NCBI GenBank assembly: GCA_021295775.1
Contig: JAGWBS010000008.1
Location: 14,734-74,636 of the forward strand
Direction: 5' to 3'
Source: Pseudomonadota bacterium
GTDB taxonomy: Bacteria > Myxococcota_A > UBA9160 > SZUA-336
DNA length: 59,903 bases
Part shown: positions 37,977-43,146 of the stretch, one piece after another
Numbering within the stretch: position 1 is the first letter of the stretch
Layout of the letters: each line of letters opens with the position of its first letter
The notes under the pieces: model-generated
Database searches by the model: none
What the model was told of the DNA's origin: nothing
Seen by the model: only the letters and a program-made list of their open reading frames with translations
Translations under genes and position numbers: made by a program

Positions 37977-39542
37977 ATGGGCGCCAAAAGTGAACCTTCC
38001 GCGATCGTCTCGGAGCTGACTCTGCTGCAGGAGAGGGACGGCTGGCTGTCGGAATCCGGCCTGCGGGACCTGGCCGCGCGCCTGCGCCTGCCGCTGCATC
38101 GCCTCGAGAGCGTCTCGACGTTCTACACCCACTTCCGGCGTTCTCCGCCCGAAGAGCGCGAGCTGGCGGTCTGCCGCGACCTTCCCTGCGCCCTGGCGGG
38201 CGGGGAGGGAGCGCTGGCGCGCCTGTCCGAGCGCGAGCCGGGCCTGAAGCTGCGGGAAGTTTCCTGTCTGGGCCGCTGCGACCGGGCGCCGGCGGCCCAA
38301 CTCGACGACGGCGGGATCGAGCTGGATCTCTCGCGCGGCGAGTCGCGTCCGCTGGCGGCGCGGACCGCGGGCCCCTGGGCCGCCGAGCTGTACTCGGACC
38401 GCGCCGAGCACTACTCGACGCTGCGCTCGCGTCTGGCCGGGGATCCCGCCGCCTGCATCCGGGAGCTGGAGGACGCGGGGCTGCGGGGCATGGGCGGGGC
38501 GGGCTTCCCCACCGGGCGCAAGTGGTCGCTGGTCGCGGCCGAGGCGTCGGAGCCCCGCTACCTGATCTGCAACGCCGACGAGAGTGAGCCGGGCACCTTC
38601 AAGGACCGCCAGATCCTGACCGACCTGCCTCACCTGGTGATCGAGGGCATGGCTCTGGCGGCTCGCAGCGTGGGCGCGCGCCGCGGCTGGGTCTTCATCC
38701 GCCACGAGTACGCCCCCGAGCGTCGGCGGCTCGCGGCCGAGCTGGAACGCGCGTACGCGGCGGGGGCGCTGGGACGGGACATCTTCGGCAGCGGCTTCGA
38801 CTTCGACGTGGACGTCTTCGTCTCGCCCGGCGGCTACATCCTGGGAGAGGAGACGGCACTGCTGGAGTGCATGGAGGGACGCCGCGGCGAACCGCGCAAC
38901 AAGCCCCCTTTTCCCGGTTCCAAGGGGCTCTGGGGCCAACCGACGCTGATCAACAACGTCGAGACCTTCGTGCACGCCGCGGGGATCCTGAGCCGCGGCG
39001 CCGAGTGGTGGCGCGGTCTGGGCCGGGGGGAGTTCGCCGGGCACAAGTTCGTCAGCGTCAGCGGCGACGTGGAACGGCCGCAGGTGGTGCTGGTGCCGAT
39101 GGGAACCCCGCTGGGCGAGCTGCTGGATTTCTGGGGCGGAATGAGGGACGGCCGGGCTCCGTCCGCCGTCGCACCGGGGGGCGCGTCGAGCAACTTCCTG
39201 GGAGCGGACGGCCTGGACACGCCACTGGACTTCGAGGCGCTGCGCGAGGCGGGCTCCATGCTGGGCTCGGGGGCGGCGATCTTCGTGGCCGAGGGGCGCG
39301 ATCTGACCGAGGTCGGATTGAACGTCGCGCGCTTCTTCCGCAACGAGTCCTGCGGCAAGTGCGTCCCCTGCCGGGTCGGGAGTCACAAGGCCGTGGCGCT
39401 GGTGGAGCGCGAGGGCGTGAATCCGCGGACCCGCGCCAAGCTGGAGGAACTCGACGCCACGCTCTCCGAGACCAGCATCTGCGGGCTCGGACAGGTCGCG
39501 CTGGCGCCGCTGCTCTCCCTCCTGCGGGGGGCGCCCGAATGA
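37977..39542 (+). CDS. NAD-linked formate dehydrogenase diaphorase subunit, fused FdsG-FdsB (NuoE-NuoF type)
   Basis: 521-residue fusion. Residues 1 to about 130 are a NuoE/FdsG-like thioredoxin fold with a [2Fe-2S] site (AVCRDLPCAL and VSCLGRCDRAP). Residues about 140-521 are NuoF/FdsB: NADH site GMGGAGFPTGRKW, FMN region NADESEPGTFKDRQ, PGGYILGEETALLE, and the [4Fe-4S] cluster ESCGKCVPCRVG plus the Cys in SICGLGQ. It passes electrons from the molybdenum subunit to NAD. In Ralstonia/Methylosinus-type enzymes FdsG and FdsB are usually separate. ATG 37977; overlaps the next gene (ATGA). Confidence 0.9.
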   Translation: MGAKSEPSAIVSELTLLQERDGWLSESGLRDLAARLRLPLHRLESVSTFYTHFRRSPPEERELAVCRDLPCALAGGEGALARLSEREPGLKLREVSCLGRCDRAPAAQLDDGGIELDLSRGESRPLAARTAGPWAAELYSDRAEHYSTLRSRLAGDPAACIRELEDAGLRGMGGAGFPTGRKWSLVAAEASEPRYLICNADESEPGTFKDRQILTDLPHLVIEGMALAARSVGARRGWVFIRHEYAPERRRLAAELERAYAAGALGRDIFGSGFDFDVDVFVSPGGYILGEETALLECMEGRRGEPRNKPPFPGSKGLWGQPTLINNVETFVHAAGILSRGAEWWRGLGRGEFAGHKFVSVSGDVERPQVVLVPMGTPLGELLDFWGGMRDGRAPSAVAPGGASSNFLGADGLDTPLDFEALREAGSMLGSGAAIFVAEGRDLTEVGLNVARFFRNESCGKCVPCRVGSHKAVALVEREGVNPRTRAKLEELDATLSETSICGLGQVALAPLLSLLRGAPE

Positions 39543-40351
39543 GCGGCGCCGCGGGAGTGGTGCTCTGCGGCGGCCGGTCGTCGCGCATGGGGCGGCCCAA
39601 GGCGCTCCTGCCCTGGCGAGGCCGGCGCATGGTCGAGCACGTCTGCTCGGTTCTGCGCGAGGTGGTCGACGAGCTGGTGGTCGTCGGCTCGGACGCCCTG
39701 GAGCTGCCGCCGCTCGACGCCCGGCGGGTGACGGACCGGGAGCCCGGGCTGGGGCCGCTGGCGGGGATCCGCGAGGGTCTGGAGGCGATCTCCGCGCCGC
39801 GCGCCTTCGTCACCGCGACCGACGCGCCGTATCTGACCCCGGCGCTGGTGAGCGCCCTGCTGGAGCGGGGAGACGCGGTCGCGCCGGTCGTGGACGGCCA
39901 CGTGCAGACGCTCAGCGCCGTCTACCCGCGCGCTCTCGCGAAGACAGCCGGCGCTCTGATCGAAGCCGGGCGCCTGCGGCCGCTCTTCCTGCTGGAGGCG
40001 GCGGAGTTCGTGCGCGTGGCCGCCGAGGAACTGCCCGACCCCGACGCGATGCGAGGCTTCAATACGCCCGAAGAGTACCTGGAGGCGGTGCGCGCGGACG
40101 ATCCGCGGGCTCGAGTCACGGTGGAGTGCCGGGCGAGCGGGTCCGGCGGCGGGAGTTCGGTGCAGGTGCCGGTGGGGACCCTGTCCGAAGTGCTCGCGAA
40201 CGCGGGATTGGAGCCGTCCCACGGGTCCGGAGAAGGGGGGCGCAGCGCGTATTCGCTCGAGGGCTGTTTTTTCCCGAACGGGCCCGGGGTGCCGCTCGGC
40301 GCGGGGGAACGCCTGGTGGTGACGCCCGGCCCGGCGGAGGCGGGCGGGTGA
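39539..40351 (+). CDS. mobA: MobA molybdenum cofactor guanylyltransferase fused to a MoaD/ThiS-like domain
   Basis: 270 residues. Residues 1 to about 185 are MobA, which adds GMP to molybdopterin: VVLCGGRSSRMGRPKALLPW, GLGPLAGIREGL, TATDAPYLTP and the closing MRGFNTPEEY. Residues 190-270 are extra and match the beta-grasp sulfur-carrier pattern: a strand ARVTVECR, strand VQVPV, helix TLSEVLANAG, strand AYSLEGCFF, then PLGAGERLVVTPGPAEAGG, ending in Gly-Gly like MoaD and ThiS. The C-terminal match is my structural reading, not a database hit. ATG 39539 and the stop both overlap the neighbours by 4 nt, so it is embedded in the formate dehydrogenase operon. Confidence 0.85.
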   Translation: MSGAAGVVLCGGRSSRMGRPKALLPWRGRRMVEHVCSVLREVVDELVVVGSDALELPPLDARRVTDREPGLGPLAGIREGLEAISAPRAFVTATDAPYLTPALVSALLERGDAVAPVVDGHVQTLSAVYPRALAKTAGALIEAGRLRPLFLLEAAEFVRVAAEELPDPDAMRGFNTPEEYLEAVRADDPRARVTVECRASGSGGGSSVQVPVGTLSEVLANAGLEPSHGSGEGGRSAYSLEGCFFPNGPGVPLGAGERLVVTPGPAEAGG

Positions 40352-43146
40352 TCGAGCTCACGATCGACGGGCGCCGGGTCCGCGTGCCCGAGGGCACCAC
40401 GATCTGGGACGCCGCGCGCGGCGCGGGCATCGACATCCCGACGCTGTGTCACGATCCCCGGCTCTCGCCCGTGGGCGTGTGCCGCGTGTGCGTGGTGGAC
40501 GTCGGCGCTCCCGCGCTGGCCGCCTCCTGCGTGCGCCCCTGCGAGGCCGGCATGGAGGTCGAGACTTCCAGCGCCCGGGTCGAGCGTCGGCGCGGGGAGC
40601 TGGTCGAGCTGCTGATGAGCGACCAGCCTCCGCCGGAGTCGGACGCGCGGGAGACGTCGCTGGGGGACAACGCCCTGCTGGAGCTGGCCCGCCGCTACGA
40701 CGCCTGGGGCGGGTCCTTGCCGCGCCAGGCCGACCGGCCGGCCGACGCTTCCTCGCCGGTGATCGCGGTCGACCACCAAGCGTGCATTCTGTGCGACCGC
40801 TGCGTGCGCGCCTGCGACGACGTGCAGAGCAACGAGGTCATCGGCCGGAGCGGCAAGGGCTACGCGGCGCGCATCGCCTTCGATCTGGACGCCCCGATGG
40901 GCGACAGCACCTGCGTGGCGTGCGGGGAATGCGCCGCCGTGTGCCCGACCGGCGCGCTGGTCGACAAGCCGCTGGATTCCGAGCTGCGTCCGCGCGAGCG
41001 GCTCGACCCGGTCGACTCCGTCTGCCCCTACTGCGGGGTGGGCTGCGCGCTCACCTATCACGTGGACCGGGCGCGCAACCGGATCGTCTTCGCCGAGGGC
41101 CGCGACAGCCCCGGAAACCAGAAACGACTGTGCGTGAAAGGCCGCTACGGCTGGGACTACGCCCAGCACCCTCAGCGCCTGACCACGCCGCTGATCCGGC
41201 GCGAGTCCGCCTATCCGAAGGGACCGCTCTCGAAAGACGTGCGCGGCGAGCACGACGGCCGGCGCAAGCCCGGAGGCATCGTCGATTACGCCGAGGTCCT
41301 GCCCGCCTTCCGCGAGGCGAGCTGGGACGAAGCCCTCGAGCTGGTGGCGCGCCGGCTCTCCGGGATCCTGCGGGAGCACGGGCCCGACGCGACCGCGGGC
41401 TTCGGTAGCGCCAAGTGCTCCAACGAAGAGGCGTACCTGTTCCAGAAGATGCTGCGCGCCGGCTGGGGCACGAACAACGTCGACCACTGCACCCGCCTGT
41501 GCCACGCCTCGAGCGTGGCGGCGCTGCGCGAAGGCATCGGCAGCGGGGCGGTCACCACCACCTACGGCGACGTGCGCAACGCGGAGGTGGCGCTGCTGGC
41601 GGGAACGAACACCACCGCCAACCACCCGGTCGCCGCCAGTTTCTTCAAGCAGGCTCGGAAGCGGGGCACCAAACTGATCGTGGTCGACCCGCGCCGCGCT
41701 CCGATCGCCGAGCACGCGGACTACTACTGCCGCATCAAGCCGGGCACCGACGTGGCGTTCTACAACGCGGTCATGGCCGTGATCATCGACGCCGGCCTGG
41801 CGGACAGCGGGTACATCGAGCGCTTCACCGAGAACTATTCGGAACTGCGCGAGACGGTGGCCCGCTACACGCCCGAGACCGCCGCCCGCATCTGCGGCGT
41901 GGACGCGGACACCATCCGCCGGATCGGGCTGGAACTGGGCCGGGCGAAGAGCAGCATCGTCTACTGGGGCATGGGCATCTCCCAGCACGTGTACGGCACC
42001 AACAACGCGCGCTGTCTGATCGCGCTGGCGCTGCTGACTGGCAACGTCGGCAAGCCGGGCTCGGGCCTGCACCCGCTGCGCGGCCAGAACAACGTGCAGG
42101 GCGCCAGCGATGCCGGCCTGATTCCGATGATGTACCCCGACTACCAGCCGGTCGGCGATCCCGAGGCGAGGGCCAAGTTCGAGCGCGCCTGGGGCCGGCC
42201 GCTGAATCCCGAGCCCGGGCTGACGGTGGTCGAGATCACCCGCGGCGCGCTCGAGGGCCGGATCAAGGGCATGTACGTGATGGGGGAGAACCCGTTCCTG
42301 TCCGACCCCGACGTCAACAAGGTTCGCAAGGCGCTGGCCACGCTGGACTTCCTGGCCGTTCAGGACATCTTCCTGACCGAGACCGCCGAGTTCGCCGACG
42401 TGATCCTGCCGGCCGGCAGCTACATGGAAAAGCTCGGCACCTACACCAACACCGACCGCCGGGTTCAGATCGGACGGCCGGCACTCGAGCCGCCGGGCCA
42501 GGCGCGGATCGACTGGCGGATCACGGCCGAGATCTCCAGCCGCATGGGCTATCCCATGCACTACGACTCGCCCGAGCAGATCTTCGACGAGATGGCGGCG
42601 CTGACCGAGAACTACCGCACGCTCCGCTACGCCAACCTGGGCAAGACGGGCAAGCTCTGGCCCAACCCGGACCCCGAGCGCGGCGACGGTTCGGAGATCC
42701 TTTTCGAGGACGGCTTTCCCACGCCGTCGGGGCGCGCCCGCTTCGTGCCCGCGGAGTGGACCGCCGCGCCCGAACTGCCGGACGAAGAGTTCCCGCTGGT
42801 GCTCAACACCGGCCGCCTGCTGGAGCACTGGCACACCGGTTCCATGACGCGCCGCGCCGTGGCGCTGGATCGGATCGAGCCCGAGGCCTTCGTCGGCGTG
42901 CACCCCGGCGACGCCGAAGCCCTCGGCCTGGCCGAGGGCCAGCGCGTGCGGGTCGTCAGCGCGCGCGGCAGCGTCGTCCTCAAGGCCCGCCTGACCGAGC
43001 GCGAGTGCCCCGGCGCCGTCTTCATGCCCTTCCACTTCCGCGAGGCCGCGGCCAACCTGCTCACCCTCGACGAACTCGATCCCGACGGGAAGATCCCCGA
43101 GTTCAAGTTCTGCGCGGTGCGCCTGGAGCCCCTCCGGGAGGCCTGA
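40348..43146 (+). CDS. fdhA: Formate dehydrogenase molybdenum-binding catalytic subunit
   Basis: 932-residue FdsA/FdhA type catalytic subunit oxidising formate to CO2. The N-terminus is a NuoG-like electron wire: [2Fe-2S] TLCHDPRLSPVGVCRVCVV, then two ferredoxin clusters CILCDRCVRACD and CVACGECAAVCPTGAL. The molybdoenzyme body begins with [4Fe-4S] CPYCGVGCAL and CVKGRYGWDY. The Mo ligand is Cys385 in TRLCHASSV (Cys, not selenocysteine), followed by the usual NTTANHPVAA and RGQNNVQGASDAG. The C-terminal MGD-binding barrel has NTGRLLEHWHTGSMT. GTG 40348 overlaps mobA (GTGA). No fdhD is in the window. The gene ends 4 nt from the convergent exonuclease. Confidence 0.95.
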   Translation: MIELTIDGRRVRVPEGTTIWDAARGAGIDIPTLCHDPRLSPVGVCRVCVVDVGAPALAASCVRPCEAGMEVETSSARVERRRGELVELLMSDQPPPESDARETSLGDNALLELARRYDAWGGSLPRQADRPADASSPVIAVDHQACILCDRCVRACDDVQSNEVIGRSGKGYAARIAFDLDAPMGDSTCVACGECAAVCPTGALVDKPLDSELRPRERLDPVDSVCPYCGVGCALTYHVDRARNRIVFAEGRDSPGNQKRLCVKGRYGWDYAQHPQRLTTPLIRRESAYPKGPLSKDVRGEHDGRRKPGGIVDYAEVLPAFREASWDEALELVARRLSGILREHGPDATAGFGSAKCSNEEAYLFQKMLRAGWGTNNVDHCTRLCHASSVAALREGIGSGAVTTTYGDVRNAEVALLAGTNTTANHPVAASFFKQARKRGTKLIVVDPRRAPIAEHADYYCRIKPGTDVAFYNAVMAVIIDAGLADSGYIERFTENYSELRETVARYTPETAARICGVDADTIRRIGLELGRAKSSIVYWGMGISQHVYGTNNARCLIALALLTGNVGKPGSGLHPLRGQNNVQGASDAGLIPMMYPDYQPVGDPEARAKFERAWGRPLNPEPGLTVVEITRGALEGRIKGMYVMGENPFLSDPDVNKVRKALATLDFLAVQDIFLTETAEFADVILPAGSYMEKLGTYTNTDRRVQIGRPALEPPGQARIDWRITAEISSRMGYPMHYDSPEQIFDEMAALTENYRTLRYANLGKTGKLWPNPDPERGDGSEILFEDGFPTPSGRARFVPAEWTAAPELPDEEFPLVLNTGRLLEHWHTGSMTRRAVALDRIEPEAFVGVHPGDAEALGLAEGQRVRVVSARGSVVLKARLTERECPGAVFMPFHFREAAANLLTLDELDPDGKIPEFKFCAVRLEPLREA

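Follow-up and report, generated by a model that had tools for sequence, protein, structure and literature searches.

MoaD genes that lie strictly adjacent to genes for the tungsten enzyme aldehyde:ferredoxin oxidoreductase (AOR) have been proposed to make the pterin of the tungsten cofactor (Iyer et al., 2006; PMC1779556). The aorD and aorE genes of Aromatoleum fit this pattern (PMC6365974), and carriers of this kind take part in making the tungsten cofactor of Thermococcus (PMC11323500). The protein tail described here, which is fused to a MobA domain and encoded in an operon for formate dehydrogenase (FDH), belongs to a family that resembles the AOR-linked MoaDs in its beta-grasp fold, its terminal Gly-Gly and its tungsten AOR neighbour. 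It differs in its position on the C-terminus of MobA, whereas the reported Azoarcus fusion has MoaD on the C-terminus of AOR, and in that the operon studied here has lost the AOR gene. The closest solved structure to the tail family, both by profile and by fold, is 1v8c from Thermus thermophilus, which in contrast comprises 168 residues with extra C-terminal sequence and is not fused to MobA.

Described MobA proteins (E. coli 1e5k and others) share the NTP-transferase fold and signature residues with the fusion protein, but the latter has a C-terminal beta-grasp extension and sits in an FDH operon. The FDH itself has its closest solved relative in MeFDH1, the tungsten FDH1 of Methylorubrum extorquens (7vw6, the best PDB match of the alpha subunit). 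Without fdhD, M. extorquens has no MeFDH1 activity, as a deletion has shown, and FdhD, MoeA1 and MobB are all essential there (PMC13197769); in contrast, FdhD is absent here. A role in FDH maturation was once proposed for the tail as well, which would liken it to the sulfurtransferase-chaperone FdhD/FdsC, but the latter has no sequence relation to the fusion protein, and the tail keeps or loses its Gly-Gly independently of FDH. With a sulfur carrier fused to MobA, two steps of molybdo/tungstopterin assembly come together in one protein, a combination that has not been reported in the literature searched.

The features of the operon are collected in Table 1; the window is the whole stretch of DNA that was analysed (59,903 nucleotides). 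The fusion gene had been placed between the genes for a diaphorase and the catalytic subunit of FDH, and the ATGA and GTGA overlaps on either side bear this out. The active-site motif of the FDH alpha subunit is CTRLCHASS, with Cys instead of Sec. The gene order diaphorase, MobA-tail and FDH alpha, with or without an AOR gene before the latter, is found in nearly all genomes that have the fusion. No Moco/Wco riboswitch was found.

Table 1. Features of the FDH operon in the window (positions of the window).
Feature	Position	Strand	Basis
FdsGB-like diaphorase, NuoE-NuoF fusion, 521 aa	37977..39542	+	Pfam 2Fe-2S_thioredx, Complex1_51K, SLBB, NADH_4Fe-4S
Overlap of diaphorase stop and fusion start, ATGA, 4 nt	39539-39542	+	sequence
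Fusion gene, 270 aa, MobA followed by a tail of ~85 residues with a Gly-Gly end	39539-40351	+	
MobA domain, residues 1-180	39539..40078	+	PF12804; kept LCGGxSSRMGxxK, D66, D95, GFNTPEEY
Predicted MoaD-like beta-grasp tail, residues 186-270, AOR-linked kind, eroded	40094..40348	+	family profile, hhalign, Foldseek of a relative's tail, alignments
Terminal Gly-Gly codons, GGC GGG, directly 5' of TGA	40343..40348	+	sequence
Overlap of fusion stop and fdhA start, GTGA, 4 nt	40348..40351	+	DNA comparison with sister genome G285
FDH alpha subunit, NuoG-like N-terminus, MeFDH1-like	40348..43146	+	TIGR01591, 776.9 bits (cut-off 666)

The sequence-only reading of this DNA described a complete MobA with an extra tail. 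The Pfam search of the fusion protein supports this description, with the MobA-like NTP transferase domain PF12804 matched at residues 6-150 (E 2.9e-35; 122.3 bits, cut-off 27) and a MobA-type region that extends to residue ~180. MobA structures in the PDB were matched both by sequence (phmmer) and by fold (Foldseek), and the fusion protein is the best MobA match in its genome. With the MobA equivalog model TIGR02665 it scores 82.2 bits, below the cut-off of 151.85 bits; however, not one genome among 29 from the class and just one of the 14 control genomes passes this cut-off. The motifs LCGGxSSRMGxxK and GFNTPEEY and two Asp positions are invariant or mostly so across 17 relatives. It is likely that the protein is a working MobA, that is a GTP:molybdopterin guanylyltransferase that makes bis-MGD for the FDH of its operon.

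The tail (residues ~186-270) has no Pfam or NCBIfam match of its own, and the fused tails do not match the Pfam family ThiS (PF02597). At least 26 full-length homologues rule out that it is a chance or frameshifted sequence. The terminal Gly-Gly noted at the outset is present in the ORF translation, which ends in ...TPGPAEAGG. A profile of 13 tails, compared with all PDB sequences, gave 1v8c, a 'MoaD related protein', as its sole match (E 1e-3). Foldseek with the tail model of a relative (L003, pLDDT 66) gave 1v8c first, followed by Urm1, CysO, SAMP1, MoaD, ThiS and TtuB, and thus matched the Gly-Gly sulfur-carrier superfamily, with modest E-values (best 2e-3) that refer to the tail of the relative and not to that of the window. 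The full-length model of the window protein is uneven in quality, with a mean pLDDT of 79.7 but values of 45-59 in residues 221-250 and of 47 in the last ten residues. The two methods agree that the tail family is, as judged from profiles and predicted structures, a MoaD-like beta-grasp, as had been suggested from the letters of the DNA.

A stand-alone homologue of the tail is encoded in another genome (G006; L105 3707-4006). It has 99 residues, ends in AAAGG, and aligns end to end with PF02597 (E 0.004; 18.1 bits, below the cut-off of 22.5). The gene lies directly before the start of an AOR gene of the operon type, which is cut short there (L105 3368-4006 on the minus strand for both; 69% identical over ~99 residues), and a transposase-like ORF is located on the same small contig.

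In a comparison of profiles (hhalign), the tails that end in Gly-Gly reach a probability of 97% (E 9e-11) against AOR-linked MoaDs from the class, versus 1.7% for canonical MoaD and 0.3% for a reversed control. The profile comparison rules out that the tail is the canonical MoaD of MPT synthase, a reading that is also opposed by the further ThiS/MoaD-family genes found in each genome of the class. Tails without Gly-Gly match the AOR-linked MoaDs with 76% probability and the window tail alone with 0.7%; therefore, the window joins this group only through its relatives. Among AOR loci picked irrespective of MoaD, a set that excludes loci picked for a nearby ThiS match, nine of 13 have a MoaD neighbour of the AOR-linked type.

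The search of genomes for the same fusion, which had been suggested as a check, showed full-length copies in at least 26 genomes, all of the window's class; G313, where the gene has an assembly gap, would make 27. It is absent from the other sampled genomes of the phylum (284 searched), and a single pattern scan outside the phylum returned three members, all matching genomes already in the set. All genomes compared are drafts. Genome G177, the one genome with the fusion that also has FdhD, carries a divergent version (L084) with neither FDH nor AOR seen next to it.

In 11 genomes the fusion is followed by a gene for an AOR of 590 residues (PF01314, E 2e-101; PF02730, E 6e-56), mostly directly between the fusion and fdhA, and in G163 ~2.4 kb after the fusion without adjoining it. 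The tails of all 11 end in Gly-Gly. Among the 18 tails without an operon AOR, that of the window is the only one with Gly-Gly; the other 17 have lost it and end in VGC, AGR, IKT, SGT, KNA, VEV and so on. The claim of a Gly-Gly terminus therefore stands for the window and the 11 AOR-containing relatives, but not for the family as a whole. The association has a Fisher p of 3e-7 on tips, which are not independent. On the tree of three operon proteins, in which some deep supports are low (37-71), AOR was lost ~7 times, and Gly-Gly was lost on the same branch in six of these cases; the seventh branch is the window. These repeated joint losses of AOR and Gly-Gly amount to a natural experiment, which supports the proposal of 2006 on a role of AOR-linked MoaDs in providing the AOR cofactor.

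The operon of the window has no AOR gene, and no operon-type AOR is found anywhere in the window genome. In AOR-less genomes the best AOR is at most 41% identical (32% in the window genome), versus 57-71% between operon AORs, which rules out relocation of the gene instead of its loss. In the sister genome G285, it is the stop of AOR that overlaps with the start of fdhA, in exactly the manner in which the stop of the fusion gene does here, as is expected if the AOR gene was deleted in between; judged from this DNA comparison, the GTGA overlap is probably the junction of the deletion. An apparent intermediate of AOR loss is seen in G296, where AOR is reduced to its two ends and the tail, at a contig edge, ends in ...SAEG. 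The remnant (L170 2-450) follows this tail and consists of ~36 residues from the N-terminus of AOR that run directly into a piece of its C-terminus.

We consider it likely that the tail is a sulfur carrier of the AOR type, fused to MobA and eroded in the window after loss of the AOR. The MoaD-like domain would have been acquired as a maturation factor for the tungsten AOR of the same operon. In the AOR-containing relatives, the tail would take up sulfur as a thiocarboxylate on its C-terminal Gly and pass it on for the synthesis of molybdopterin for the tungsten cofactor of AOR, and perhaps also of FDH, so that sulfur supply and guanylylation would be linked in one chain. In the lineage of the window, the AOR gene would then have been lost from between the fusion and fdhA, with MobA retained because the FDH needs it and the tail left to erode.

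In alignments with the relatives, the first-strand motif LxGRA is no longer present in the tail of the window, and four loop residues are deleted. The ratio of dN in the tail to dN in MobA is 1.2-1.6 in pairs with AOR and 2.0-4.7 in most pairs without; it is 1.7 for the window and its sister genome. No relaxation is seen in one AOR-less genus (G115, G227 and G298; ratio 0.8-1.2). Since the AOR gene is absent from the window, the Gly-Gly is probably a leftover and not a tool for making FDH. It may be inherited, the tail of the sister having AAAGG at its end, or it may have arisen when the deletion brought in the 3' end of AOR; the DNA alignments for the two origins are comparable. The tail of the window is now probably vestigial or structural.

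A structural tail, acting independently of Gly-Gly, for instance by docking MobA to MoeA, MoaE or apo-FDH, would have been kept after AOR loss for that reason. We regard this as possible, if rather doubtful as the main reading, and it is compatible with an origin as AOR-type carrier. Every AOR-less fusion has a full-length tail, dN/dS stays under 1 wherever dS is usable, and G213, L219, P252, G254 and E257 are invariant in 17 sequences; however, the tail changes faster than MobA in most AOR-less lineages, and that of the window is without its first-strand motif and a loop segment. Some role that does not depend on Gly-Gly is likely in the family, because the tails without Gly-Gly are full length, have dN/dS values of ~0.3-0.5 in several pairs with usable dS, and keep the P, G and E of the VPxGPGE loop. 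The retained terminal Gly-Gly, present without AOR, means that the tail of the window may still function. As an active sulfur carrier it could serve general molybdopterin synthesis or an unrelated AOR on contig C4, the one AOR of another kind in the genome, next to which no Gly-Gly MoaD gene was found. This appears unlikely to us: the genome has other ThiS/MoaD-family genes, the core of the tail is eroded and matches no MoaD profile on its own, and its last residues could come from the AOR 3' end.

The sequence-only reading saw in the fusion a possible dedicated factor for FDH maturation, in which the Gly-Gly thiocarboxylate sulfurates bis-MGD in place of FdhD. It was right that FdhD (PF02634) is missing from the window, and none is found in the whole genome, which is 89% complete; the fusion protein has no PF02634 match either. 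FdhD is present in none of the 38 genomes of the class with MeFDH1-like FDH, versus 16 of 17 with another FDH type (hand-tallied from search tables for 91 genomes of the class plus two added genomes). These counts, the requirement for FdhD in the related MeFDH1 system and the overlap of the fusion gene with FDH genes all speak for such a factor. However, FDH of the window type occurs without FdhD also in genomes with the 17 tails that lack Gly-Gly, and in six genomes (G022, G066, G051, G303, G305 and G300) with an unfused MobA in an operon without any tail. Gly-Gly goes with AOR and not with FDH. The earlier reading had also made its case depend on conservation of the terminal Gly-Gly in homologues; the Gly-Gly is not conserved among them, and the link to FDH is refuted on this point. 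We therefore consider a dedicated FDH factor very improbable. Because FdhD-less genomes retain the FDH even when their tail lacks Gly-Gly or they have no tail at all, the tail of MobA is not the general answer to the lack of FdhD, and for the same reason we rejected substitution for FdhD as the main reading.

In 38 genomes FdhD is thus absent although their FDH is of a type that depends on FdhD in the member studied best, which constitutes a testable gap. It is conceivable, but in our view improbable, that MeFDH1-like FDHs mature here without FdhD because the operon MobA, with or without a tail, took over sulfuration of bis-MGD, its delivery, or both, and that in the AOR-bearing relatives one polypeptide moreover combines sulfur donation with guanylylation in making the tungsten cofactor. 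That the operons without a tail have a further conserved gene for maturation was considered and rejected: the neighbours there encode an outer-membrane beta-barrel, a cytochrome P450 and TauE, and none is a cofactor gene. Several FDH genes of the other type have an in-frame TGA, which makes selenocysteine likely. One in-frame TGA is seen in the FDH genes of G295, G080, G277, G006, G232, G312, G154, G255, G297 and G144, which suggests that the TGA-bearing genes of the class encode selenocysteine FDHs.

The operon with the order diaphorase, MobA.MoaD, tungsten AOR and FDH is seen at L068, L070, L073, L078, L079, L081, L082, L087 and L169. From this gene order we speculate that it may be an NAD-linked module that turns formaldehyde or another aldehyde into formate and then into CO2.
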